Positions 29,394-63,373 of a stretch of DNA of 64,000 nt are shown one piece after another. Source of the stretch: a candidate division WOR-1 bacterium RIFOXYB2_FULL_46_45. Its GTDB lineage: Bacteria > Margulisbacteria > WOR-1 > XYC2-FULL-46-14. The position numbers were made by a program, and so were the translations under genes. The notes under the pieces are model-generated. The model did no database searches and was not told where the DNA came from. It worked only from the letters and a program-made list of their open reading frames with translations. Location of the stretch: NCBI GenBank assembly GCA_001771585.1, contig MEUE01000003.1, positions 474,109 through 538,108 on the forward strand, read 5' to 3'. Each line of letters starts with the position of its first letter. Position 1 is the stretch's first letter.

Positions 29394-29422
29394 ATTCTAA
29401 CAGAGCGGTCTTATGGTTGCAA
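29394..29422 (-). promoter_or_regulatory. Promoter of the histidine kinase (shares -35 with SMC)
   Basis: On the minus strand TTGCAA (29417-29422), 17-bp spacer, TAGAAT (29394-29399), 9 nt to the ATG at 29384. TTGCAA is self-complementary and is used in the other direction for the SMC gene. Confidence 0.65.
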
Positions 29423-29445
29423 GCAACAATGTAATCGGATATAAT
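29417..29445 (+). promoter_or_regulatory. Promoter of the SMC gene (shares -35 with the kinase)
   Basis: TTGCAA (29417-29422), 17-bp spacer, TATAAT (29440-29445), 8 nt to the ATG at 29454; no Shine-Dalgarno. The exact mirror layout of the kinase promoter about one shared -35 box. Confidence 0.7.
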
Positions 29446-29453
29446 TCCAAAAT

Positions 29454-31724
29454 ATGTTCCTCAAATCACTTGTCCTGCGCGGCTTTAAAACTTTTGCCGA
29501 CAAGACCGTTTTTGAATTCGAACCGAACGGATTGACCGCTATCGTCGGCCCCAACGGCTGCGGCAAGAGCAACACCGTCGACGCCTTCCGCTTTATCCTG
29601 GGCGAAGGGTCGCTCTCGGAAATAAGGGTCAAAGAGCTCTCCGACATAATCTTTGCCGGGACCCAAACCAAAAAACCTCTCTCGATGGGAGAGGTGGCGA
29701 TCACTTTTGACAATTCCGACCACGCGCTTCCGATCGACTTCTCCGAAGTTTCGATAAGAAGAAGGACTTTCCGCGACGGGGCCTCCGATTTTTTGATCAA
29801 CAACAACTCCTGCCGTTTGAAGGATATCCGCGACCTCTTCCTTGACGCCGGCATCTCCGAAGATTCCCTTTCAATTATCGGACAGGGGAAGGTTGACTCG
29901 ATCCTGTCGTCGCAGCCGGAAGAAAGAAGACAGGTCTTTGAAGAGGTGGCGGGGATAAAAAAATACAAACAGCGAAAGGAAGAAGCGGAGAAAAAACTGA
30001 TCTTAGCCGAACAAAATCTCCTGCGGATCTGCGATTTAAAAAACGAGATCGGTGAAAACCTGTCGGTCTTGGAAGAACAGTCCAAAGCGGCGGAAGAATA
30101 CCTGGCGCTTAAAGAAAGCTTCCGCTCGCTTGAAATCGGCATTTCAAAAAAACAGGTGGCGGTTCTGCTTGAAAAGAGCGGACTTTTAAAAGAAGAGATC
30201 GAAAGATTCGAAAAAAGCGAAGACGAACGGCTCAAGAAAGAAAAAATTGTCGGGGCCGAAAAACATTCCCTGAAAGAAAAGATCAAAACGCTCGATTTGG
30301 AGCTTGAAAACGCGCGGATCAAACTCGAAACTTTGCGGGAAAAGGCGGAAACGGAACGCTTTGCGGCAATGATGGAAAAAGAGAACCGCCTGCGCGATCT
30401 CAAAGAGGCGGAACGCTTCCTCGCCTTTGAGATCGGCCAGCTTAAAAACACCAACGGCACAATTGACGCCAAACTTCTTGAGCTCCGCAAAAAAACGGAG
30501 CGGGCCGGCGTTGAGGCAATGGACATTCTCCCCGAGCTCAAAGAATTTGTGGCTCTTTCCGAAAAGCTTTTTTCAATCTCGCGAAGTTTGATAAAGGGCC
30601 TGCACCAGAAAGAAATTGAAGACCATTCCAAAAGCAGCCGGCTCCTTGATATCCTAAACGCCGAGATCGTGGAATTTACGGAACAAAAGCAAAACAACGA
30701 AAACGCGCTAAGACAGAAAGAGGCGGAGATGAAGGCGGCCGCCGAAAAATTAAATGCCGAACAGCCCTCCCCTCCATTGGTGAACCTGGCCATACAGGAA
30801 GAACAGGCCAAACTGCAGGAAAAAATAGTGGAGCTAAAAAAAGAAAAAGAACAATGCGCCGACAATATCGAATTTTTGGAATCAAGAGGGGAAACCCCGG
30901 AAGAGGCGGCGGCGCGGGAATTCCATCTTAAAAACAAACTGCTGCTCGCCAAGACCGAAGGGGAGCTCTCGCAGGTTACCGAAAGAATCTTTGCCGAATA
31001 TAACCTGACCGTTTCCGATCTGATGCAAATTGAGACCGAGATTCCGAATGTGGGAGCGGCCAAAAAAGAAACGCTCCGTTTAAAATCCCGCATGCTGGAG
31101 TTGGAACCGGTAAACTTAATCGCCATTGAAGAATATAAACAATCCACCGGTCGGTTCCGGCTAATCAACGAACAATACGAGGACTTAAACTCGGCCCGCG
31201 AAAACTTAAAAGGGCTGATCGCGGAACTTGACCTCAAGGCCAGGGAAGAGTTCTTGAGGAAAATGGAGATTATCTCCGCGCACTTTAAGCAAATTTTTAC
31301 CGAGCTTTTTCCGGGAGGGGAAGCCAAGATTGAACTGGCGCTGTCCGAAAACAGCAATCCGCTTGAAGCCGGGATCGAAATTTCAACCTGTCCCGGCGGG
31401 AGAAAATGGCTGCCGCTGCAGGCGCTTTCCGGCGGGGAGCGGGCGTTAACCGCGATCGCGATCCTTTTTGCGTTTTTGAAAACTAACCCCAGCCCCTTTT
31501 GCATTTTGGACGAGGTTGACGCGCCGCTTGACGACGCCAATATCGACCGTTTTACAAAATATTTAAAAGAGATGGCCAAAGTAACGCAGATGATGATCAT
31601 CACCCACAACAAGCACACCATGAAGGCGGCCGACACCATTTACGGAATCACCATGGAAGAGGCCGGCGTCTCCAAACTGCTCTCAATGAAGATGAACAAA
31701 CTGGCCGCCGAAACGGTGGCATGA
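29454..31724 (+). CDS. Minimal SMC-family ATPase without recognisable hinge
   Basis: 756 aa, against about 1150-1200 for bacterial SMC. Both head halves are complete and SMC-like: FKTFADKTVFEFEPNGLTAI, Walker A VGPNGCGKSN, SIIGQGKVDSIL, EEVAGIKKYKQRK at the N side; EPVNLIAIEEY, signature LSGGERALTAIA, Walker B FCILDEVDAPLDDAN and IITHNKHTM at the C side. Only about 385 residues lie between, nearly all coiled coil. The Gly-rich SMC hinge is absent, as is a Rad50 CxxC hook; residues 340-400 (GVEAMDILPELKEFVALSEK...) break the coil and may form a small turn. One unbroken frame. ATGA overlap with the next gene; no scpA/scpB nearby. Confidence 0.88.
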   Translation: MFLKSLVLRGFKTFADKTVFEFEPNGLTAIVGPNGCGKSNTVDAFRFILGEGSLSEIRVKELSDIIFAGTQTKKPLSMGEVAITFDNSDHALPIDFSEVSIRRRTFRDGASDFLINNNSCRLKDIRDLFLDAGISEDSLSIIGQGKVDSILSSQPEERRQVFEEVAGIKKYKQRKEEAEKKLILAEQNLLRICDLKNEIGENLSVLEEQSKAAEEYLALKESFRSLEIGISKKQVAVLLEKSGLLKEEIERFEKSEDERLKKEKIVGAEKHSLKEKIKTLDLELENARIKLETLREKAETERFAAMMEKENRLRDLKEAERFLAFEIGQLKNTNGTIDAKLLELRKKTERAGVEAMDILPELKEFVALSEKLFSISRSLIKGLHQKEIEDHSKSSRLLDILNAEIVEFTEQKQNNENALRQKEAEMKAAAEKLNAEQPSPPLVNLAIQEEQAKLQEKIVELKKEKEQCADNIEFLESRGETPEEAAAREFHLKNKLLLAKTEGELSQVTERIFAEYNLTVSDLMQIETEIPNVGAAKKETLRLKSRMLELEPVNLIAIEEYKQSTGRFRLINEQYEDLNSARENLKGLIAELDLKAREEFLRKMEIISAHFKQIFTELFPGGEAKIELALSENSNPLEAGIEISTCPGGRKWLPLQALSGGERALTAIAILFAFLKTNPSPFCILDEVDAPLDDANIDRFTKYLKEMAKVTQMMIITHNKHTMKAADTIYGITMEEAGVSKLLSMKMNKLAAETVA

Positions 31725-34246
31725 GGTTTTTTTTTCCGCTCCCCCTCACACTCTTTCTCACACTCTTGCTCACATTCCCATCCCATGCTCTCCCCTCCCC
31801 GCTGACCGCCGCTGTTTCGGTCTGTCCTTCTTTCGGAAAGATTGAACAACGCAACCCGCTGATAATCGGCGGCCTGGTTGTTTTTGAAGATTCCCGATCG
31901 GGCAAAAGCAAGCTTTACGCCCAAAAAATCGGGGCCGACAATGATACTCCCGTTTCTGGTTCGCGGGGGAGCCAAAGCGGCGCTAAAATGGTTTGGTCCG
32001 AAGACAACGCGGCAATCGTGGTTTGGCAGGAAGAAGAGAACGGGATTACCCGCATTTTGGCCCAAAAGATCGGACCGGACGGGTCGCCGCTTTGGGGCTC
32101 AACCGGAATCATGCTTGCCAATTCCGAAAAAAGCCAATCGGACCCGGTCCTGGTCTCCGACCGGACGGGAGGGGCGATTGTCGCCTGGCAGGATTTTCGC
32201 AAAGATAACGAGGACATTTACGCGCAGAGGATCGGCATAAACGGAAATCTGCTTTGGCAAAAAGAGGGCGTGGCGCTTACAGCCCACATTAAAACCCAAT
32301 GGTATCCGCAGATCGCGGAAGACGGATCCGGAGGCGCGATTATCGCCTGGAGCGACCGGCGGGACGGGAACTTTGACATCTACGTGCAGAGGGTTACCGC
32401 AAACGGGGGACAGCTCTGGGGAACCGAAGGGAAAAAAATCGCCGGCTCCGAACTTAACGAAGAGGATCCCCGGCTCATCAACCTGAAAAACAACCGCACC
32501 GCCCTATCTTACCGGATAAAAACGAACGGCAGTTACCTTTTTCTTTTGGACGAAAATGGGAATGTTTCTTTTTCAACCCAAATCAATCAGACTTGCCCGG
32601 AAATTGAACTGGCGGCCGGTTCAGGGAACGAGATTATCGCTTTTTATTCCGACGCCGCCTCCGGCGATACCGACCTTTACTGCAAAGCGTTTAACGAAAA
32701 GGGACAACTTCTTTGGAATCAACCGATTGCCGAAGTCCGCGGAGCGGAAGAGCAGATAAAAATAAAAGGGACCGGCCCGTGGATTGCCGCCTGGGTTGAC
32801 CATCGCAACGGACGGGCCGAAATTTTCAGCCAAAAAATTGAGTCCGGCGGAACATTGAGTTTCGGAGCCAACGGGATGAAAATCTCCGAAAAACAGCAGG
32901 ATCCCCTCTCCTATTCTTTTTACGCGAACGAAAACGGAGAAGGCTTTTTTGCTTTCCAAAACGATTCGGATATCTACGGCCGGAAAATCGGCGGCGGTGA
33001 AGAACCTTTTATTATAAATTCCGCCAAGGGACGGGCCGCGCAGAAAAACGCCCGCCTGATTGACGACAATTCTGGAAATTATATCGCCGCTTTTGAGGAT
33101 TACCGCCGGGGATATTCGGAAATTTATCTTACTAAAATTTCTCCGCAGGGAACTCCTCTCTGGGGGAAAGCGGGAATAGCGGTCTCGCCGAACGGCTCTC
33201 CGCAAAAAAACCCGCAAATAGCCGGCGACGGGGCCGGCGGAGCCTGGGTGGTGTGGGAAGACGGCTCCAAATTATTCTGCCAGAGAATAAACCGTAAAGG
33301 GGAAAGGATCTCCAAAAGCGGGATCGTTTTGACCCCTACCATAGGTTATGCCGAACAGACCAGGGCACAAATTGTCTCCGATCATAACCATGGGACAGTT
33401 ATCGTCTGGGAAAATTACGAAAGCGCTTATAATGCCAAAGACATTTGGGCGCAAAGGATAACTTCCAAAGGAAAACTTGCATGGAAAAACGGCGTTAAAA
33501 TTATTGCTTACGGCGGCGACCAGGCCGCTCCGGCAATTTCCGACAAGAATCTTGTGGTCGCCTGGGCCGACTCCAGGCTGGACGGAAGAACCTTTGACAT
33601 TTACGCCCAAAAGATAAATTCGGCGGGAGAACTGCTCTGGGCCGAAGACGGCATCCCGGTTTGCGAAGCTCCGGATGTGCAAATTGATCCGGTAATTGCC
33701 GATTCGGGAGATGATTCTATTGTTTTTTGGACCGACAAAGCCGGAGGGAGTTTTGATATTTACGCGCAAAAAGTGGACGCGAACGGCACCTGCCGCTGGG
33801 TTAAAGACGGGATTGCGGTGGCGCAATCGAGCCGCACCCAGCAGAGAGCAAAAATTTCGCTTCCAACCGTTCTCTGGGAAGATTTCCGTTTCGGCAACTG
33901 GGATATTTACGCGCAGGCGCTCGGGTCGGACGGGAAACTGCTCTGGGCGGATGACGGAATTCCGATCGTAAGCGCTTCGGCCACCCAGTATAATCCGCAG
34001 ATTGTAAAAAACATAGTGGCATGGGAAGATTTTAGAAATGAAAGCAACTACGCGATCTATTTGCAAAAACTTGGCAGTGACGGAAAAAATCTTTATCCTG
34101 CCAACGGCGTTTTAGTTGAAGCGTCCGCCTTAGGCGGCCGCTTCCCGGCTCTCGCCGCGGCCTCCAATCTCAGCAGTTTTGCCGTTATGTGGGAAGACGT
34201 CTCCCTGGGTGAACCCCGCTTATTGTGGCAGAGATTCAGGCCCTAA
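31721..34246 (+). CDS. Secreted repeat protein, probable beta-propeller or solenoid
   Basis: 841 aa with signal peptide (MRFFFPLPLTLFLTLLLTFP). The mature chain is about 14 copies of a 45-60 residue unit with consensus W-x-D-x-R-x-G-x2-DIYAQ-x-I then G-x-LLW-x3-G-I; examples are DIYAQKINSAGELLWAEDG, DIYAQALGSDGKLLWADDG and DIYVQRVTANGGQLWGTEG. Such repeats suggest beta-blade folds and an extracellular or surface location. No C-terminal sorting domain like those of the 51-64 kb cluster is present. It overlaps the SMC gene by four bases (ATGA) and has no separate promoter, so it depends on SMC expression although the functions look unrelated. Confidence 0.8.
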   Translation: MRFFFPLPLTLFLTLLLTFPSHALPSPLTAAVSVCPSFGKIEQRNPLIIGGLVVFEDSRSGKSKLYAQKIGADNDTPVSGSRGSQSGAKMVWSEDNAAIVVWQEEENGITRILAQKIGPDGSPLWGSTGIMLANSEKSQSDPVLVSDRTGGAIVAWQDFRKDNEDIYAQRIGINGNLLWQKEGVALTAHIKTQWYPQIAEDGSGGAIIAWSDRRDGNFDIYVQRVTANGGQLWGTEGKKIAGSELNEEDPRLINLKNNRTALSYRIKTNGSYLFLLDENGNVSFSTQINQTCPEIELAAGSGNEIIAFYSDAASGDTDLYCKAFNEKGQLLWNQPIAEVRGAEEQIKIKGTGPWIAAWVDHRNGRAEIFSQKIESGGTLSFGANGMKISEKQQDPLSYSFYANENGEGFFAFQNDSDIYGRKIGGGEEPFIINSAKGRAAQKNARLIDDNSGNYIAAFEDYRRGYSEIYLTKISPQGTPLWGKAGIAVSPNGSPQKNPQIAGDGAGGAWVVWEDGSKLFCQRINRKGERISKSGIVLTPTIGYAEQTRAQIVSDHNHGTVIVWENYESAYNAKDIWAQRITSKGKLAWKNGVKIIAYGGDQAAPAISDKNLVVAWADSRLDGRTFDIYAQKINSAGELLWAEDGIPVCEAPDVQIDPVIADSGDDSIVFWTDKAGGSFDIYAQKVDANGTCRWVKDGIAVAQSSRTQQRAKISLPTVLWEDFRFGNWDIYAQALGSDGKLLWADDGIPIVSASATQYNPQIVKNIVAWEDFRNESNYAIYLQKLGSDGKNLYPANGVLVEASALGGRFPALAAASNLSSFAVMWEDVSLGEPRLLWQRFRP

Positions 34247-34974: not shown

Positions 34975-37900
34975 ATGCCAGGAAGAGTTCCTAAAGCGGA
35001 ATCAGCCGGCCCTATTGATTTTTCTTATCCCTTGCGTGAAGACAAGAACGTAAAAGCAGGGAATAATGCCCTTCAAAAAGATCGGTTTTATGAAGCAATC
35101 GGCAGCTATAACAAAGCCTTATCTCGCGCTAATTCCGACCAAAACAAGGCGGCTATAAACTACAACCTAGCCATCGCCTGGTTTAAGCTGGCACAAGAAC
35201 AAAATGACCCTTCAATTAAAGAGGCCTACCTGCAAAAAGCGCAAAAACATATATTTACCGCGTTTAAACATCATCGCAGTCCCATCCACCCGGATCTCCC
35301 CTATTTGGCAGGGACAATCCATTATTCTTTGGCAGAATTAAATTCAAATGACTCAAGCTGGGTAATGGGAAAACAATATTTGGAAGACGCGAAGAATTTT
35401 TTTGTTTCTGTCCTTCAAAAAACGGCGCTTGACCCAAAACAAAGAGAATTGCATAAGAAAGCCCAATACAATCTTGAATTAACGATAAAAGCTTTGGATG
35501 AATTCCTAAAGAAATATACCAATGGGATTAAAACATCTAAGCATAAAGAAAAACCAAAAACACCGGACGCAAAAAAAGAAACAGTTCACAAGTTTAATAG
35601 AGCGTTATATGAGAAGACCAGAAAAGAACTTGCTAAAACACTCCCAAAGAAACCTCCCAAAGAAGTCGCAAAAGCTGCGGCCAAAGCAATCGAAGATTTG
35701 CCAAGGCCTAAACTTGCCGAAGCCAAACCGACCAGCTTAGGGAATGTTTCCACTGACAGTATTCTTTCTATAGTTGACACTAAAAAACCAGATGAGGGTA
35801 AAAAACTATTTGGCTATATCTCCCCCAACCGCTATGTCCTGTTAAAAAATGGGATTCTTGACCAATTGACCAGGATTGGCGTTACAAAAAGCCCATCTTT
35901 ACCTTTGGATCCGCAAGGTCAGCGCAAAGAATTATCCTTTACAGTGACCCTTTATGCCAATAACGACAAAATTTCCCTGCTCAATCATTTGAATGGAGAA
36001 ATTGACGATATTAAATTTTACGGTCCCGACGGGAAAGAAAATTTCCCGCAATATACTTTAGAGAAAGGCCAATCGCAAGAGACAACAATAGTTCTTCAGG
36101 AAAAATTCAAAGGGACGGTGGTTTATAAAATTTACAAAACCGAACCGGAAAAAAGCGCCGGCGTTGGCAAACAATACGTTCAACCGGCCCCTTTTGCAAT
36201 TGAATATCCTGCCGATCTTGAGGCGGAGCTGCAGAAATTAGACCAGCTGCCAATCGCGCAAAAAGTCGCCGGATTAAAATCCTGGATACAAACCAATTTA
36301 ATATATGACAGGTCTGAAGAGACAAAAACCGCTTATCTTTCTTCTCTTGTTTCTACTCCCCCAGTTAACTTGGCCCTTAAAATAAGAAAAGTTATGTGCG
36401 GGGTGGCCAATACGGTTTTTATTGCCATTTTAAGAAGCAGATATAAAATTCCGGCTCGTTTGGCTAGCGGATTTATGGTTTCAGACGGCAATATCAGAGA
36501 TCCATTCCATGGCTGGGCGGAGGTTTTTTACGATGGTAGGTGGCATACCGAAGACGCGACCCAGCAGGGATATTCCTCAGATTTTCTAGCAGTGGAACAA
36601 AAAAAAGAAAAAAAGAGAGAATATACTGCGGCGGATTATTATAAATTAAGGGCTGAAGTTTACCAGTCTGACACTAGTCCTCCCCGTTTATGGGAGTTTC
36701 AAAGGGTTGCCAATGGATTAGGCAGAAACTATTTAAATGATGCATTTGTTGTATTAAAAGAACAAGAGAGCATTCCCCCTAATTTTATCCTTCTCTTGCA
36801 TACCGCATCAAACAATTCGCAGCTAATTGATTTTTTTAGATATTTAGACAAAAAATACCGGGCAGGAAGGGTTAATTTGAGAATGGTTGTGAATAGCCTA
36901 TCTGATGCCATTGATCGTAAAAGTTATCTTTTTAATCCAAACTTAAACTTAGTAAGAAAATTAATAGCAGGATGGTCTCCTTTAATATTGCAAAACATGG
37001 ATAAACTAAGTCGTTCAGATTTAATTACGGCAGTTGCCTTCTCGCAAGAACCGGCACATGTAAAACCTCTTTGGAATTGGATAGTTAAAAACAAATATTG
37101 GCGTGGCATAGATAATCTTCTTAAATTTAATCCGGCTTATACCGAACAGGCGCTAAACTTTATGCTGGATGTTATGAATGAGGATAATAGTTCCAGCATA
37201 CTAGACAAAATATTTGAGATCAGCGGGCTTCTATATGGAAAACCCGAATACCGGTTTCTGGAAAAAATTGCCCCACAATTTTATAACAAGGCGGCATCCT
37301 GGGCTGAGCAACACGCCCTCCTGGACGTATTATTTTTAGCTCCGCTTGAATTCATTAAGGCAAATGTTGATAATTTGATTAATAATATGAAATCAGTTTC
37401 TGACGGTTTTAAGCATCAAGTTTTTTATAATGTGGCTGGCCTTGAGACACTTCATCCGGGAGTTGAGGGATCTTTTTTAAAATTGGCCTTAATGGCTCAC
37501 GATAAGAGAGTATTAAAAGCACTTGCAAACCTCATAAATAAACATGTAAGGAGGGGATCGTCTCACTTTAGCGCATTTTCTCTTAGCGCTGCCATTAACT
37601 CTTGGGATAATAAAAGATTAACCTTACTCGGGGAAGTGGATGCCAAAGCAGCGTGTATCGTTTTAGAAGAAAGGATTAATAGGCAGTTAGAGCTTAATAA
37701 TTGGAAACTGGACACGGATAAAGAGATTTCCAAAAAATCATTACTGCTTCTTCAAAGACTCTCTCTTAAAGACAAAACCATTTCGCGAAAAGCTGCCTAT
37801 TTTTCCCTTTCCACCATGCAGCAATTATTCTTTCTCGGAATAGAAGTCCAAACAAGTAAGGAAATCGCCAAGAATTTGGCCAAACTGCTTAAAAAATCCG

Positions 37901-38586
37901 GTGCTAAATTGGAAGAGATTATGGCTTTTGTCGATTTTTCTGCCGAGAATTTTACCAAAATGCATATCTCGTCTTCCGAATTCACATTCTGGAGTACCCT
38001 GATATCTCAATTACTTAAAATGCTGCCAAGCGATAAACAATATATTCCAATTAGAAAAATGTGGGATAAACTTAAACAATTCCCAAAAAGATTGCGGGCG
38101 CTTCTGCCGACTATTTCTGGATTAAATTATTCGTACTTTATCCGGGCCGCCAACGGGGAGCCGGAGAGAAAATTTTATGACGAGAAATTAGAATACGAGG
38201 TCAGAAAAGCCTGCAAGGATAATTTTCCGCATTTCAGCCAAGGCGATAAAATGCTGGTAGCATCGAGATTTCTGGCTAAATTAAGTGTTAATACTTCCCG
38301 GGAAGAATTACAAAGACTACCATTGTCTGTCTTCGTGCAAAAATACCAACAAAACAGAGATTCTTTTTATCTTAAAGAGTTAATGGACGGGAAATGGGAA
38401 AAAGCTAAATGCTCCCCAGAAATAATCAAGAATTTAACTTCTTTCGCCTTAAACGGCTTTGCGACGGATGTTGAAAAAAACAATTTCATCAACCGCGTCG
38501 AATCAAAATTCAATATCAAGCTCAAAATCTCAAAGGAAGAGCGTGAAGATATCAGCCATCCAATAGAAGGATTTATATATCCCTAG
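34975..38586 (+). CDS. Large TPR-transglutaminase-like protein with helical-repeat tail
   Basis: 1203 aa, no signal peptide. Residues 25-175 form TPR-like helices ([20 protein letters not shown]). Residues 440-560 hold a transglutaminase/cysteine-protease core: Cys about 475 in [12 protein letters not shown], His about 512 in [12 protein letters not shown] and Asp about 526 in [10 protein letters not shown], the expected triad. Residues 600-1200 look like helical repeats (HEAT/ARM-like). The start has AGGAGGAG upstream, a strong ribosome site. The gene is richer in A/T than metK next door and lies beside a toxin-antitoxin-like pair, so it may be accessory. It ends across the metK stop codon. 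Target unknown; it could cross-link or cleave proteins in the cytoplasm. Confidence 0.75.
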
Positions 38587-47773: not shown

Positions 47774-48541
47774 ATGGGAATTATCACTGCAGTCGTAAAC
47801 CAAAAAGGGGGCGTGGGAAAGACCACCACCACCGTCAACCTTGCCGCCTACCTGGCGACCTTCGGAAAGAAAGTGCTCCTGCTCGATCTTGATCCGCAGG
47901 GAAACGCCACCGTCGCCTTCGGGATCGATCGGAACAATATTGAAAACTGCATCTATAATCTTTTAAGCGAGGAACTCCCCATTGAAAATGTTATCCAAAA
48001 AACCAACTTGAACAACCTGGAAGTGATCCCCGCAACCTCCCGCCTGGCCGGTGCCGAAGTAGAGCTGGTCACCGCCGAAGCGCGCGAAGGGCGGCTCAAA
48101 AAAGCGCTCTTTGCCGCCCGCGACCGCTACGACAATATTTTAATCGACTGCCCGCCATCGCTAAATTTATTGACGGTAAACGCCCTGGCGGCGGCGGACG
48201 AAGTGATCGTCCCGATCCAGTGCGAATACTACGCGCTGGAGGGGATCAGCCAACTGATGCACACCCTGGATTTAGTGAAGGAACGACTTAATCCGTCCCT
48301 AAAAATTGCCGGCGTTCTTTTAACTATGTACGACAGCCGCACAATTTTATCCAACCAGGTGGCGGAAGAGGCCAAAAAACATTTTGGAAACAAGGTCTTC
48401 AAGACCATCATCCCCCGCAATGTCCGCCTGGCGGAGGCCCCCGGCTTTGGACAGCCGATCGTTTTTTATGATCCCAATTCACACGGAGCAACCGCTTATG
48501 AAAAATTCGCGAAGGAGGTAATCGGCGATGAATCAGCCTAA
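47774..48541 (+). CDS. parA: Chromosome partitioning ATPase ParA (Soj)
   Basis: 255 aa. Deviant Walker A KGGVGKTTTTVNLAAYLA at residues 10-27 with the signature first Lys, Walker A' LLLDLDPQGNAT, Walker B ILIDCPPSLNLLTVNAL. Length without N-terminal HTH domain is type Ib/chromosomal Soj-like. It moves ParB-parS complexes by nucleotide-dependent nucleoid binding. Forms an operon with parB (14-base overlap). Confidence 0.96.
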   Translation: MGIITAVVNQKGGVGKTTTTVNLAAYLATFGKKVLLLDLDPQGNATVAFGIDRNNIENCIYNLLSEELPIENVIQKTNLNNLEVIPATSRLAGAEVELVTAEAREGRLKKALFAARDRYDNILIDCPPSLNLLTVNALAAADEVIVPIQCEYYALEGISQLMHTLDLVKERLNPSLKIAGVLLTMYDSRTILSNQVAEEAKKHFGNKVFKTIIPRNVRLAEAPGFGQPIVFYDPNSHGATAYEKFAKEVIGDESA

Positions 48542-49385
48542 AAAAGGGCTCGGAAAAGGACTCGACGCTCTGATCCCAAAAGGGACGGTTTTTACATCGG
48601 GGAGGACAATCGTCAACATCGATATTACCAAGATTTTTCCAAACCCCAAACAGCCCCGGACCACCTTTAACGACGCGGACCTGGCCGAACTGGCGGAAAG
48701 CATCAAGGGGAGCGGAGTGATCCAGCCGGTTTTGGCCCGCATGAACAAAAACGGTTACGAGCTGGTGGCGGGAGAGCGGCGCCTGCGCGCGGCAAAACTG
48801 GCCGGTTCCACCACCATCCCCGCGATCATCAAAGACTTTTCGGACGAAGAATCGGCCCAGCTTGCCCTGATTGAAAATCTCCAGCGGGTCGATCTGAACC
48901 CGGTTGACGAAGCCGATGCCTACAACCGCTTGAGCCTGGAATTTAACTGGTCGCAGGACGAGATCGCAAAAAAGGTCGGCAAAAGCCGTTCAACCGTTGC
49001 CAATATGATGCGGATACTTGACCTGCCGGGAGAAGTTTTGGACGGACTGCGCTCCGGAAAAATTTCCGCCGGCCACGCGCGCACCCTTCTGGCCGCGCCC
49101 AAAGAGAACCAGCTCGACCTCTACCGCCAGATTATCTCAAGCAACCTGACGGTGCGCGACATTGAATCGGTGGTCTCACCTGTAGCAGCGGAAGGGAAAA
49201 AAGAACGGAAGAGAGAGAAAAAATATAATATTTTTCAAGACGTTGTCGACCAGCTGATGGGCTGCCTGGGGACCAAGGTCAGGATCTACGGCTCCTGTGA
49301 AAAAGGGAAGATCGAGATCGACTTTTTCTCGAAAGACGATTTAAACCGGCTCCTCGATCTAATCTTAAAGAAGGAGGTGCAGTAA
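48528..49385 (+). CDS. parB: Chromosome partitioning protein ParB (Spo0J)
   Basis: 285 aa. N-terminal KKGLGKGLDALIPKG (ParA-interacting arm), ParB/Srx CTPase domain with FPNPKQPRTTFNDADLAEL and GERRLRAAKLAG, ENLQRVDLNPVDEA, the HTH IAKKVGKSRSTVANMMRIL, GHARTLLA and a C-terminal dimer domain. Binds parS and CTP, forms sliding clamps that ParA segregates and that load SMC. The SMC here is a highly reduced form, so whether ParB still loads it is an open question. I found no clear parS in the window. Confidence 0.96.
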   Translation: MNQPKKGLGKGLDALIPKGTVFTSGRTIVNIDITKIFPNPKQPRTTFNDADLAELAESIKGSGVIQPVLARMNKNGYELVAGERRLRAAKLAGSTTIPAIIKDFSDEESAQLALIENLQRVDLNPVDEADAYNRLSLEFNWSQDEIAKKVGKSRSTVANMMRILDLPGEVLDGLRSGKISAGHARTLLAAPKENQLDLYRQIISSNLTVRDIESVVSPVAAEGKKERKREKKYNIFQDVVDQLMGCLGTKVRIYGSCEKGKIEIDFFSKDDLNRLLDLILKKEVQ

Positions 49386-56812: not shown

Positions 56813-59800
56813 CTAATCAAGCACCAATACGTGCCCAGAGCCGATCACCTTGTTGTTGCCGATAATTTTGATCATGTAGATCCCATTCGGTACCGCCGAG
56901 CGGACAAGATCTGAAATGCCGTTCCAGCTAACCTCATTGTATCCGCTCTTCCCCCCGTCGGTTCCGCTCTGCGCCTTAAAAGTCCACGCCACCATCCCCA
57001 CCTTGCTAATCACATAAATACTGATGTCCGCGTCGGTTGAAAGCTGGTAGCTAATCTTACAAGTCCCTCCGCTTAAGGCCTTGAATTCGGTCGGATAGGT
57101 CAACACCTCTCCCACCACCTTCACATCCCCGCTCTTCGCCACTTTGAGTCCGGTTACTTCTTTTGTCCCTTTATTGCTGTTCGTATCGGTCGCCTCTATT
57201 GTTATCGCGTGCGTCATCACGCTCTCATCCGCCAGATCGGTCGTTGGCGTATACTCCAGCGTCGCCGCCGTTGTACTCGTCGCAACCGTAGTTAGTGTTA
57301 CCAGTGTTCCATCTACTCTCATCGTAACCCCGCTCGCGTTAATTGCCACATCGTCTATCGCCGTTATACTGAAGGTCGGCCGCGCAGAAATATAATCATC
57401 ACTGCGGATCGCGGTGTCTTTTATCTTCATCGTGATCGTCGGAGGATTGGGATCTCCGCTTTTCGTCGTAAAGCTCTTGCTGTAAGCCGTACTCAACGAG
57501 TTTCCATAAATATCTTTCGCCGCTGTGCTGACCGACAGGGTATAGCTGGTCCCGCCGCTTAACTGGTTCGTCGGCGTAAAGGTCATAGTCGTATTCCCCG
57601 TGTTCCAGCTGAAGGTCCCGCTCACTACCGACTTTATTGACGCTCCGGAAGACGAGGTCTGCAAAGAAAAAGCGTTCTCCACACTGGTGGTTTCCATCGT
57701 CCTTGAAAAATTTAACTCGAAATCAGAATCTATCTCCACATCAATATCCGGTATATTTATCGTTATCTCGCTGGTTGTTATCTGCTGGGTATCAAGCGTG
57801 AAAGTAAAGCTTTCGCTGAAGCTCCCCCAATTCAACGCCCTGTCTTGCGCCCTAACTTTCCAAGTATAGGTCCCATCGGTCAATGTTGTCGGATAAGTAT
57901 AGCTGGTAGCGGTTGTAGTTGTGACTACCGTACTGTTTAAGGTCACCTCATAACTCCCGATCCCGCTCGTCTCATCGGTCGCGATGCTCCAGGTAAAAAG
58001 CGGCGTCGCGTCATTGGTATTCGAATTATTTGTCGGCGACAGCAGTGTCGGAACCGTCGGAGCGGTCGCATCGTAGGTTATCGTTGATGTGACTGTTGCA
58101 CTCTCGTTTAAACCCGCATTCCTTATCTTATAGTACACCGTCTTTCGCGCGTCACTACTGCTCAATGTAAATTCACTCGTCCCCAAATAGGTCAGCCAGC
58201 TCGCTCCGGTAAAACTTGCCGACTCCGAACTCATCATTTCCGTCGGAACTCCGCTTACTCCGGTCGCTTCAATCGAAACCAACTGATTATTTGTATAACT
58301 TGTACTTCCACTGCTCCGATCCTTAAGCGTCAGCAAACTTACGGCCGGAACGGTTGTGTTGATCGTAAAACTTTGTGCCGTGGAATAGCTCCCCCATAAC
58401 TCCACATTGCTCTTTGCTCTCGCGTCCCAGCTGTGGCTCCCGTCCGTCAAAGTTGTTGACGGCGTATAACTCGTTACCGCCCCCTGCGTTGTTGCTATCG
58501 TCCCGTCTATCCGCACCTCGTAACTGGCAATATTCGACAAGCCCGTGGCGGCATTCCAACTAAAGGTCGGGGTTGCGTCATTCGTTATTGTCCCCGTCGT
58601 CGGATAGACCGCCGTCGGAGCGGTCGGATTCGTCGAATCGATTATAAAATTGGCGGTCGATTCTTTCGTCCCCCAATTATTGAAAATATCCTGCATCTCA
58701 ATCTTTATCCTCGCCTCATTCGTCGTGAACGCCGGTACGGGATTCCAACTGTACGCCGAAGTCGTCGCCTGTCCCGTCGCGATGCTGACATAGCTTGTCC
58801 CTTCATTCGTCGAATATGAAATTCTCATCGAATTCGCTTTAATCCCGTAACTATCCGTCGCTAAGAAGACCACATCGTGCGCCACTCCCCCCTCCCAGCT
58901 CGTCGACGCCGACGGCGTCTCAATCGTTATCGTCGGCCCCGTATACTCTGGAATATATATTGTAAACTTCGAATCGCTCTCGTCCGTCCCCTTCACATTC
59001 GCTCCCGAGGTTGCTTCGATACTGATTTTACAATTTGTCGAATTTACCACCGGCAAGGTCCACGAGTAACTCCCCGTATTCGGCTGGGCGCTCGCTATCG
59101 CCGTGTAGCTCACCCCATCATCCGTTGAATACGACAAATTTATTCCCGTTATCCCATCCGCATCCTGAGAAGCCTGCCAGGTTATATTGTGCGCCGACAC
59201 CGCTTCCCAGCTCTCGCTCCCGTTTGGAGAAATCACCCTCACCGCAGGGACCCCTCCGGCCGACATATCGTACTGGTACGCCCCCATATCAGATGTAGCG
59301 GGAGTCGCCGTGTGGATACAAGGAGAATTATTAGACAGATGATAATCGTTGCCGGCAGAATTTACAAACTTGGCATTAGAAGAAATTGCTCCCGTGCCGG
59401 CGGTTGTTCCGCTGTAATTTGTCGCATTGCCGTAAACATTATTATAAGAATTAGTTAATGTTATACTCGCCCCTTTTATGATACCTGTCCCGCTGGCAGT
59501 CCCCCCTTCGGGACTTGCGCAAACTATGTTATTGGTAACAGTATAGACACCGTTACGTCCCAAAGAAATCCCGGTCGGATTATTAGTAAAGGTATTATTG
59601 GTAAGAGCCAAAGTATTGGGGGTAAGAATGAGCCCATAAAAACCCGTAACAAAGTTGTTTACTTCATTTGTGCTGATCGTCCCCGAATATCCCTGCCCGG
59701 TAAAAAATATCCCGTAACTGCCTGATGCGCCGCTTCCTGTTAACTTGTTATTTTTGATCAGGTAATTATTATAAGTATTAAAAAAATGGATTGCCTTCCC

Positions 59801-62800
59801 ATCTATTCCTGTAACTTCGATTGTACAATTATTAATTGTAATACTATCTCCTGCCGTCGCAATATATATCCCCTCACCCGATGTCCCGCTTGCGGATATG
59901 CTGCACACCTCAACCGTACTGTTGTCGGCGGTATTATTGATCTGAACACCATACGAGGCAATGCCGTTGTGGGTTATTGAATTGTTGGATATTAGTCCGG
60001 CGGCATTTAAGGTAATCGCCCTTGCCGCATCACTATTAGAAATAATCGTATTGCCATAGATCACCGCTCCGGCGCTGTTGCCATAAACAGAACCAAGCCC
60101 GGCAGTAATTGAATTATTTCTGATTTCAGAAGCAGAATTTGCCTGCAGAGCGTAATAATTAGAATCGACTGTCGCGGTAATGCTAAATCCTTCTACCGTA
60201 GAGTTGTTGCCGACAATTATCCCGTAATTGGATGAGACTGTCCCTGCCGCAATAATTGCATTGGTGCTCGGACTGGCATCTGATTTTAAATAAATACTGG
60301 CAGGAATTGTTATGGGAAAGCTCTCCGATGACCCGCTCATCGCAGAATTGTATGTTCCCGCCTCAACCAATATTTGATCACCGGCCTGCGCCTGAGTCAT
60401 GGCATATGTTATGGTCTGCCACGGCCTTCCCGAACTCCCATCCCCCACTACATTCCCTTCTGTTGTACTTGCGTCAACATAATGAGTAGCACCTCTTGTA
60501 ATAGTAAAACTTGCAGCCGATTCATCTGTACCGACATATCCTCCGGCATCTTGAAGTTCTATCTTTACTCTCGCGTCTGTAGTTGCCACATTCGGTACTA
60601 TCCAGCTGTAAGGAGAAGTCTTCGACGCGCCGGCAACCACGCTCGTGTAGGTGGAGCCGCCGTCAACCGAATAATAGACGTTTAAACTGTTGGCGGCAAT
60701 TCCAGAATGGTCGGTCGCTTCAAAAGTTATCGGGTAGGTGCTCCTGCCGGCAATTGTTTCCCCGCCATTGGGCGCTTCGATTGTAATTGTCGGCCCGGCC
60801 GTATCAATCCAATCATAGGCTCCCATATCCGCCCCTTCGGGAGTTCCGACAGCTATACAAGGGGAAGAGTTGCCAAGATGATAATTATTCCCCGCCGCGT
60901 TGACAAACTGGGCGTTGGCTGAAATTGTCCCAACCCCGCTTCCAATTGTCCCTTCATAACCCGTAGTGTTTCCATAAACATCGCTGTAGCTTACATTTGC
61001 CGTACCGCCGTTATTATCAATTCCTTTACCGGAAGAAGTTCCTCCCGCCGGATCATACGCGACTATACAGTTGGTTATATTGGTAACCGTGGTACCGTCA
61101 TTTTGAACATTTATTCCGGTATCATTGGCAATAAGCGTATTATGGTTTACGGTAGCCACGTGTGAACCAACTATTCGCGTATGAATCCCCGTAGTAAAAT
61201 TTCGAACCTCGTTGCTGCCCACTGTACCGATCTCATTCCATGCCGACAACATTATGCCGACAGAGCCGTCTCCGTCACTGGCTACAATGTTGTTGGTTAT
61301 CAAATAATTATTGTTCGAGGCATTCATATTTATTCCGTAAGAAGATCCTGCTCCATCCACTTCGATAGTATTGCTTTTAACGGTAATGTTATCGGCGCTA
61401 TCTTCCGCGCGGACACCCTGCGCAGCATACCCTGTTGAAGAGATGGTGTTTCCTTCGGCAGTGCTATTGTCAGCCGCATTCACAAAATTGATACCAAAAG
61501 AACTCCCCCCATTATGGGTAATAGTATTGTTTAACACGTGTCCGCGCGCGTTTAACTTCACGGGCATTGTTTGGTTATTGTCCCCGTTTGATGTTAAAGT
61601 ATTTCCCGAAATAAGAGCCCCCGCTCCATTTATAACCGCCGATCCATTGGCGGCAACTATTGAATTATTAATTAAAGAAGAATTCGCATATAAGCTCACC
61701 GCATGGTTATTGGCGTTGGTTGTGGTGGCGGTTATCGAAAATCCTTCAAGAGTCGCGCCTACTCCCAAATTTATGGCATTGTTGCTTCCCACACTTCCCG
61801 CCGCGAGGATCGCGTTGGTAGTCGGATCAGCTATTGATTTTAAGTATTGCCCCGCGGATAAACTGAAAGGATAGGTCTCTCCGTTTGAAGTATCATATGT
61901 CCCCGCCTTAACATTGATTGTACCGGTTGTGTTGGCAATCCCCTTGGCAACTGTTTTCCACGGACTTCCCACACTGCCGTCACCGGTACTGTCATTTCCC
62001 GAAACCGCGTCTATATATGAAGCGGCTACAATCGAAGAGGTGCCGCTGTCATCCTGGTACGCGCCAATGTCGGCGCCGCCCGATGACGTTCCAACACAGG
62101 GAGAATCGGAATAGAGATGGTAATTATTACTGCTGACAGCTTTGAATCTTGGATAAGATGAAATATCTCCGGTCCCGGCGCTGACTCCATTATAATTTGT
62201 TTCGGTATTCCAAATATTATTATAGGTTGAAGTGACTGTTCCGCTGGCACGATAGATGCCGATGCTGCCTCCTATGTATTCCCCCGGTTGCGCGCCGCCA
62301 CAGACAATATTATTAGTCATGTTAACTATGCCGGCATAATTTATATTAATTCCATTGGTATTTCTAACAAAAGTATTATGGTTAAGCGTAGCTGTAAAAT
62401 TATCTAAGACCCTGAGGTATGTTCCATTTGTGAAACCCCTGACCTCGTTACTAGCAACCGTCCCGCTTCTAACGGTACCGTTTATGGATAATACGATCCC
62501 GTACAATGCCGAGGGGGAAGAGGTCGTACTGCCAACAACCTTATTGTTCGTAATATTATAACTAGCGTTGGTGCCGTTTGCTTTTATTCCCGCCGTGTTC
62601 GAACCGGTAGCTTCAACCGTATTATTGTTAATTAAAATACTGTCCGCGGAATCGTCCAAATATATTCCGTTCGAATAGGTTCCTGTTCCACTGACAGTGC
62701 AACCTTCAACCGTACTCGTGTCGGCCGCATTTTGTATTGAAATAATATTTATCCAGGCTCCATTTTGAGTTGCGTTGTTGCCGCTTACATATCCTCTCGC

Positions 62801-63373
62801 GTTCAGACGGATTCCGGAACCATTATCGGGACTGTCGGCCGCGCTGGCAACTATTGTATTGTTTATTACCGATGCCCCCGCCGCACTTACAACCACCCCA
62901 CCCTTTGAAGCCGTTATACTATTATTTAAAACCTGCGCGTCCGCATTTGCCTGAACCGCATAATAACCGTTGGTAAAGCTGGTCGTCGTAATGGTAAAAC
63001 CGTCGACAGTAGAATTCGCGCTTAAAACAATTCCATGGACGCTTGAACCGGTTGCCGCGATTGTGGCCGAAGTTGTCGGTGTGGCATTTGACCGCAAGGT
63101 GACTCCGGCTGGAATTGTTATGGGAAAAGTCTCGACCGAACCCGGCATCGTCGCGGTATATGTTCCGGCAGCGGTTAAGATAATATCGTTTGCGGTAACT
63201 TGCCCCACCGCCCAGGTAATTGTTTGCCAAGGATTACCCGAAGATCCGTCCCCATCAACGTTCCCGGTTGTAGCCGCGGCGTCAACATAGTAAGTTGCCG
63301 CAAAACCGGCAGGGCAAAAGACCCAAAGAACACAAAAAAAAACCACTAACTGTTTAAACAGTTTTTTATTCAT
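56813..63373 (-). CDS. Giant secreted adhesin with three beta-helix modules and Ig-like domains
   Basis: 2186 aa. Signal peptide (KKLFKQLVVFFCVLWVFCPA). Three right-handed beta-helix modules, each opening with a DUF1565-like YVDA...GDGSSG-PWQTI segment (about residues 28, 450 and 963), with many NNxI ladders. Ig-like domains follow (TIEAPNGGETIAGRSTYPIT, RVISPNGSESWEAVSAHNIT), then strand-rich regions with TTLTDGSHSW-type repeats, a Big_5 domain (LNFSRTMETTSVENAFSL), and a FlgD/T9SS-like C-terminal module (VLTYPTEFKALSGGTCKISY to SGHVLVLD). Few Cys. Probable long surface fibre or polysaccharide-binding adhesin. The C-terminal 200 residues are nearly identical to those of the next gene. Confidence 0.87.
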   Translation of the reverse strand: MNKKLFKQLVVFFCVLWVFCPAGFAATYYVDAAATTGNVDGDGSSGNPWQTITWAVGQVTANDIILTAAGTYTATMPGSVETFPITIPAGVTLRSNATPTTSATIAATGSSVHGIVLSANSTVDGFTITTTSFTNGYYAVQANADAQVLNNSITASKGGVVVSAAGASVINNTIVASAADSPDNGSGIRLNARGYVSGNNATQNGAWINIISIQNAADTSTVEGCTVSGTGTYSNGIYLDDSADSILINNNTVEATGSNTAGIKANGTNASYNITNNKVVGSTTSSPSALYGIVLSINGTVRSGTVASNEVRGFTNGTYLRVLDNFTATLNHNTFVRNTNGININYAGIVNMTNNIVCGGAQPGEYIGGSIGIYRASGTVTSTYNNIWNTETNYNGVSAGTGDISSYPRFKAVSSNNYHLYSDSPCVGTSSGGADIGAYQDDSGTSSIVAASYIDAVSGNDSTGDGSVGSPWKTVAKGIANTTGTINVKAGTYDTSNGETYPFSLSAGQYLKSIADPTTNAILAAGSVGSNNAINLGVGATLEGFSITATTTNANNHAVSLYANSSLINNSIVAANGSAVINGAGALISGNTLTSNGDNNQTMPVKLNARGHVLNNTITHNGGSSFGINFVNAADNSTAEGNTISSTGYAAQGVRAEDSADNITVKSNTIEVDGAGSSYGINMNASNNNYLITNNIVASDGDGSVGIMLSAWNEIGTVGSNEVRNFTTGIHTRIVGSHVATVNHNTLIANDTGINVQNDGTTVTNITNCIVAYDPAGGTSSGKGIDNNGGTANVSYSDVYGNTTGYEGTIGSGVGTISANAQFVNAAGNNYHLGNSSPCIAVGTPEGADMGAYDWIDTAGPTITIEAPNGGETIAGRSTYPITFEATDHSGIAANSLNVYYSVDGGSTYTSVVAGASKTSPYSWIVPNVATTDARVKIELQDAGGYVGTDESAASFTITRGATHYVDASTTEGNVVGDGSSGRPWQTITYAMTQAQAGDQILVEAGTYNSAMSGSSESFPITIPASIYLKSDASPSTNAIIAAGTVSSNYGIIVGNNSTVEGFSITATVDSNYYALQANSASEIRNNSITAGLGSVYGNSAGAVIYGNTIISNSDAARAITLNAAGLISNNSITHNGIASYGVQINNTADNSTVEVCSISASGTSGEGIYIATAGDSITINNCTIEVTGIDGKAIHFFNTYNNYLIKNNKLTGSGASGSYGIFFTGQGYSGTISTNEVNNFVTGFYGLILTPNTLALTNNTFTNNPTGISLGRNGVYTVTNNIVCASPEGGTASGTGIIKGASITLTNSYNNVYGNATNYSGTTAGTGAISSNAKFVNSAGNDYHLSNNSPCIHTATPATSDMGAYQYDMSAGGVPAVRVISPNGSESWEAVSAHNITWQASQDADGITGINLSYSTDDGVSYTAIASAQPNTGSYSWTLPVVNSTNCKISIEATSGANVKGTDESDSKFTIYIPEYTGPTITIETPSASTSWEGGVAHDVVFLATDSYGIKANSMRISYSTNEGTSYVSIATGQATTSAYSWNPVPAFTTNEARIKIEMQDIFNNWGTKESTANFIIDSTNPTAPTAVYPTTGTITNDATPTFSWNAATGLSNIASYEVRIDGTIATTQGAVTSYTPSTTLTDGSHSWDARAKSNVELWGSYSTAQSFTINTTVPAVSLLTLKDRSSGSTSYTNNQLVSIEATGVSGVPTEMMSSESASFTGASWLTYLGTSEFTLSSSDARKTVYYKIRNAGLNESATVTSTITYDATAPTVPTLLSPTNNSNTNDATPLFTWSIATDETSGIGSYEVTLNSTVVTTTTATSYTYPTTLTDGTYTWKVRAQDRALNWGSFSESFTFTLDTQQITTSEITINIPDIDVEIDSDFELNFSRTMETTSVENAFSLQTSSSGASIKSVVSGTFSWNTGNTTMTFTPTNQLSGGTSYTLSVSTAAKDIYGNSLSTAYSKSFTTKSGDPNPPTITMKIKDTAIRSDDYISARPTFSITAIDDVAINASGVTMRVDGTLVTLTTVATSTTAATLEYTPTTDLADESVMTHAITIEATDTNSNKGTKEVTGLKVAKSGDVKVVGEVLTYPTEFKALSGGTCKISYQLSTDADISIYVISKVGMVAWTFKAQSGTDGGKSGYNEVSWNGISDLVRSAVPNGIYMIKIIGNNKVIGSGHVLVLD
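56816..57415. repeat. 600-bp repeat, copy 1 (adhesin C-terminus)
   Basis: Encodes the last 200 residues of the 2186-aa protein. Ungapped and about 94% identical in DNA to 63401-64000 by my count of roughly 35 differences; most are silent, protein changes are few (Val/Ala, Ile/Val, Val/Ala, Val/Ile). Confidence 0.9.

Follow-up and report, generated by a model that had tools for sequence, protein, structure and literature searches.

A hinge-less, half-length SMC protein conserved across a bacterial class that retains ScpAB and parS

The hinge is regarded as a defining part of SMC complexes, in connection with dimerisation, a proposed DNA gate, and the bypass of obstacles. In the 64,000-nucleotide stretch of DNA analysed here (the window), the smc gene encodes a protein of only 756 aa, and the analysis concerned whether the hinge is really missing and, if so, what kind of ATPase is left. 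A preliminary description made from the sequence alone had proposed a half-length SMC that cannot dimerise in the usual way, acting as a minimal loop-forming or end-binding ATPase. The gene and its ATPase motifs lie in the window as follows.

29454..31724, + strand: smc, hinge-less half-length SMC ATPase, 756 aa (ORF; TIGR02168; class homologues)
29547..29573, + strand: Walker A motif GPNGCGKSN at residues 32-40 (read from the sequence; no variation among 28 homologues)
31425..31523, + strand: ABC signature (LSGGERALT) and Walker B (ILDEVDA) (sequence; 28 homologues)

The smc ORF starts with ATG and its translation contains no internal stop. The window SMC scored 683.6 bits with TIGR02168 (SMC_prok_B), against a cut-off of 567.35, and was matched in two stretches, which in a six-frame search covered profile positions 1-474 and 849-1181; therefore, a central block is absent from the protein. 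Both halves of the ATPase head are complete, as had been noticed from the sequence, and in the alignment of 28 homologues the signature (LSGGE at about residues 658-662) and Walker B (residues 684-690) were, after the invariant Walker A, invariant or almost so. A genome search indicated that the window SMC is the sole SMC of the source genome (1.70 Mb, four contigs, 99.5% complete), the remaining SMC_N matches being ABC-type ATPases and a 510-aa frame that is RecN-like by size. A 742-aa open frame opposite smc, at 29411-31639 (-), probably does no more than mirror the coding strand.

Next to be considered is whether the short form is peculiar to one assembly. In a phylum sample of 74 genomes, 31 of which belong to the same class as the window, an SMC homologue was present in 30 of the 31 class genomes, and the lone exception was a genome of 69% completeness. 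The near-full-length class homologues (n = 28) ranged from 714 to 909 aa and shared the short architecture; the nearest was 68% identical to the window SMC, and one sits in a single-contig genome (G065). An assembly or annotation artefact, that is, a deletion or frameshift in smc, is refuted by these 28 proteins from separate genomes, and its probability is negligible.

Subsequently, the hinge was sought with the SMC_hinge profile (PF06470). Six-frame searches gave no match in the source genome at E <= 10 and none across the 31 class genomes at E <= 0.001. The same search as for the class genomes was positive in 10 of 14 control genomes and in all eight genomes of the f30 lineage, where the SMC measures 1190-1193 aa and gave a strong hit with the hinge profile in every genome (in one of them the SMC is broken by contig ends). 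When the 28 homologues were compared with all Pfam families at E <= 10, SMC_hinge was absent from the 25 commonest families listed. A hinge encoded by a separate gene was rejected on the empty six-frame searches, and a zinc hook on the lack of a CxxC motif in all 28 proteins. The canonical SMC hinge has an alpha/beta fold; in structure searches with the whole model of the window SMC, no known hinge fold stood out. Thus, the absence of both hinge and hook, as originally described, was borne out, and neither of the two outcomes named there as refuting it, a hinge in a profile search or a deletion in the assembly, materialised. With the hinge gone from a real and conserved protein, dimerisation in the usual way, through the hinge, is impossible.

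AlphaFold models of the window SMC and of one distant homologue, both as monomers, were used to examine what occupies the place of the hinge. The parts of the coil between the two head halves are given below.

29958..30512, + strand: outgoing arm of the coiled coil, residues 169-353, a single helix about 185 residues long (AlphaFold model)
30534..30605, + strand: hydrophobic apex helix, residues 361-384, at the hinge position (two AlphaFold models; composition)
30630..31001, + strand: returning coiled-coil arm from apex to joint, residues 393-516 (AlphaFold model)
31002..31307, + strand: joint and head-proximal coil, residues 517-618 (AlphaFold; alignment to 5xei)

The two models agreed on a helix of 175-185 residues (residues 170-344 in the homologue), a loop, a 24-residue apex helix (361-384 in the window SMC, 356-379 in the homologue), another loop, and a return arm with the joint near the head. 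The tip was purely helical in both. Confidence was good for the head and the joint, whereas the tip had a low pLDDT of about 47-68. The coil between the heads, joint included, covers approximately residues 169-618, with which the earlier estimate of about 385 residues between the heads is in agreement if the neck and the head-proximal coil are excluded. The top hits of Foldseek and VIA-align were SMC heads, namely Pyrococcus 5xei and Geobacillus SMC (5xg3 among the top hits), followed by cohesin and condensin heads; with 5xei, a Pyrococcus SMC head with coil and joint, 483 residues were aligned with a Z of 27.6.

The apex differs from the arms in composition: the residues LIVFM make up 39% of it against 25-27% of the arms, and charged residues 22% against 39-46%. 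Furthermore, in 24 of the 28 proteins the 25 consecutive residues of greatest hydrophobicity within the arm region were located at 42-52% of its length, where the chance expectation for such a central position is about 17% per sequence and the sequences, being related, are not independent. For all its hydrophobicity, the apex is weakly conserved in sequence, and in f6 and f7, the deepest members, its helix is harder to make out. Given this hydrophobic apex helix, which had been missed when the sequence was first described, it is plausible that the tips dimerise in another way.

We then looked for the partners of a bacterial condensin. Two of their genes are found in the window.

47774..48541, + strand: parA (Pfam AAA_31, 232 bits)
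48528..49385, + strand: parB, with a GERR motif (Pfam ParB_N and HTH_ParB; sequence)

GERR is a motif of the site at which ParB proteins bind CTP. ScpA was detected in 27 and ScpB in 26 of the 31 class genomes, all misses falling in genomes less than 90% complete, and scpA adjoins scpB in the source genome. Two perfect parS sites, 892 bp apart, are present on contig C1 of that genome; parS within one mismatch was found in 28 of the 31 class genomes, and a reversed control pattern in none of the 31. The retention of ScpA, ScpB, ParB, and two perfect parS sites argues for a ParB/ScpAB-type condensin and against an end-binding Rad50-like enzyme. Judged by its sequence, the window SMC is still such a condensin, and the only one of its genome. 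Hence, the functional guess of the preliminary description was right in part. A second full-length SMC, which it had suggested looking for together with ScpAB, was not found, and ScpA and ScpB were. The loss of the hinge stands; the proposed end-binding ATPase is not supported, since sequence and predicted structure are those of an SMC and not of Rad50 or RecN, and ScpA and ScpB are present. Its suspicion that ParB-dependent loading may be altered is not supported as stated either, because ParB with its GERR motif and both perfect parS sites are kept.

The gene that follows smc was also inspected.

31721..34246, + strand: repeat-containing protein of 841 aa whose N-terminus resembles a signal peptide (ORF directly 3' of smc)

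Its start codon overlaps the stop codon of smc in the sequence ATGA. In each of the 14 class loci compared, a homologue is the next gene 3' of smc, and none was seen beside smc in the f30 lineage. The 841-aa protein had no Pfam match; as an arm-tip partner it is unlikely, since its signal-peptide-like start makes it look secreted. Elsewhere in the window are a 1203-aa ORF without any Pfam match (34975-38586) and a very large ORF of 2186 aa (56813-63373, -).

As to descent, all 28 short SMCs fell on one side of a branch with support 100/99 in a head-only tree, in which f30 was the closest full-length group and two Bacillota SMCs were further out. Because all eight genomes of f30, the nearest SMC-bearing lineage, have kept a full-length hinged SMC, the hinge was lost in the class, probably once, at or before its base. 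The deep class members f5, f6, and f7 have longer arms (852, 909, and 828+ aa, respectively), which suggests that the arms were reduced stepwise. As one part of the best overall explanation, the window SMC probably arose from a normal bacterial Smc that lost its hinge together with the hinge-side portion of both arms; it is Smc by descent, and by architecture it departs from Smc in having no hinge.

In the 35 genomes outside the class and f30 (G002-G036), SMC_prok_B at E <= 1e-20 found no SMC except a contig-end fragment in G008. Fourteen of these genomes were examined and contained only RecN- and RecF-sized proteins and the G008 fragment, with parS kept in most, and these lineages appear to have lost SMC or to use a replacement. 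In G015 (97% complete), ScpA and ScpB are kept (G015:C51:6072-7438) and no SMC was found; either smc lies inside a gap or ScpAB is partnered with something else.

From the sequences and the monomer models we infer dimerisation, loading, and loop extrusion by the following route, which we consider reasonably probable: the all-helical tip would replace the hinge as the dimerisation module, giving a shorter ring, essentially the SMC 'core', that is loaded at parS and extrudes loops. Two protomers would join through their tip helices in a small helical bundle, ScpA would bridge both heads, and ScpB would bind ScpA, so that a closed ring of about half the usual length is formed. ParB would load this ring at parS. 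ATP-driven head engagement would then lead to DNA clamping and segment capture in the small lumen, followed by release upon hydrolysis, and DNA loops would be formed without a hinge gate. Such a ring is predicted to bypass large obstacles on DNA poorly.

A short ring without a hinge is credible because of two earlier results. B. subtilis Smc in which a Rad50 zinc hook replaces the hinge supported normal growth on rich medium (PMC5344682), and a Wadjet JetC core devoid of the whole elbow-to-hinge segment still cleaved plasmid DNA, which was taken to report on loop extrusion, if artificially dimerised (PMC12647877). The JetC core did not bypass obstacles, and its ring had to stay closed (PMC12647877). 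JetC belongs to another SMC family, and its core had to be crosslinked by design; with that reservation, the class proteins resemble such a core that came about naturally. The wider claim, that a natural class-wide condensin extrudes loops by means of a half-length ring in which a hydrophobic tip made of helices alone provides the closure, and that the hinge gate is dispensable for segregation in living cells, is put forward tentatively, as one that may or may not hold.

Alternatively, the arms might never dimerise at the tip, and the two SMCs might form an open clamp, held together solely through ScpA-ScpB at their heads and the ATP-driven engagement of these heads. The lack of any known dimerisation domain in the class SMCs and the retention of ScpAB would suit this arrangement, but we consider it unlikely, since 24 of 28 proteins have a hydrophobic stretch in the middle of the arm region, which is unexpected for a free coil end, and the JetC core was inactive once its ring was opened (PMC12647877). 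Dimerisation could also occur in trans through an unrelated tip-binding protein, or the hinge could have diverged beyond the profiles or collapsed into the apex, and the deep members with longer arms (828-909 aa) fit a reduction that may have been stepwise. However, both models have only helix at the tip, against the alpha/beta fold of the canonical hinge, the six-frame genome searches contained no hinge match, and for a partner in trans no candidate is known, the product of the conserved downstream gene looking secreted. These possibilities are accordingly rated as quite improbable.

A repurposed repair or end-binding ATPase, similar to Rad50/SbcC or RecN, is more improbable still. Half-length arms without a hinge do recall RecN-sized proteins, but the RecN, Rad50, and archaeal ASRP models scored far below their cut-offs whereas SMC_prok_B scored above its own; moreover, there is no CxxC hook, the genome has a separate 510-aa RecN-like frame, and ScpAB and parS are retained. 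MukB/MksB identity was rejected, PF04310 (MukB N-terminal domain) matching two of the 28 members with a best E of 0.12. A phage origin was rejected as well: a scan of viral contigs returned ordinary SMC fragments and short proteins, and the two short ones inspected carry CxxC. Viral contigs L096 and L107 encode SMC-superfamily proteins of 703 and 774 aa that appear SbcC-like because of their CxxC hook and, in one case, an SbcD-like gene that follows.

A class whose sole SMC is hinge-less while ScpAB, ParB, and parS are intact is a natural experiment on the need for the hinge. The question of 'core motor versus hinge gate' becomes testable in vivo, and a compact SMC is on offer for structural work.

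Among known systems, RecN likewise has a short coiled coil and no hinge; unlike RecN, the window SMC scores only 48.7 bits on TIGR00634 (cut-off 407.85). Rad50/SbcC and archaeal ASRP (coalescin, Sph) are also SMC-superfamily ATPases with a coiled coil and no SMC hinge, but they use a CxxC zinc hook (PMC9389158), which the class SMCs do not have. With the Smc of Smc-ScpAB, as in B. subtilis, the class SMC shares the head, neck, joint, ATPase motifs, ScpA/ScpB, and ParB/parS; it differs in having no hinge, a hydrophobic tip helix, and a helix of about 185 residues instead of 344 aa (PMC5344682). Prokaryotic arm lengths show main modes at 238, 341, and 515 aa and a minor mode at 163 (PMC5344682); the outgoing helix of the window SMC is shorter than all the main modes and nearest to the minor mode. 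The engineered JetC core (PMC12647877) and Rad50-hook Smc (PMC5344682) also function without the native hinge, but these are laboratory-made, whereas the class SMC is natural and conserved across its class.

The idea of a hinge-less SMC is not wholly new, because June 2025 saw the report of a marine 'hinge-less' SMC clade, drawn from ocean gene catalogues and assigned to Actinobacteria, with the comment that the protein possibly has a different function (PMC12153180). No other report of SMC proteins lacking a hinge was found in the open-access literature. As far as the available text of that report goes, the marine proteins are similarly of SMC type, with no hinge, no zinc hook, and apparently no regular SMC alongside; the lineage here is a different one and comes with genome context, and ScpA/ScpB are not mentioned in that text for the marine clade (PMC12153180). 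The present analysis adds a different lineage, complete or near-complete genomes, class-wide loss of the hinge, the persistence of ScpAB and parS, and a candidate for the module at the tip.
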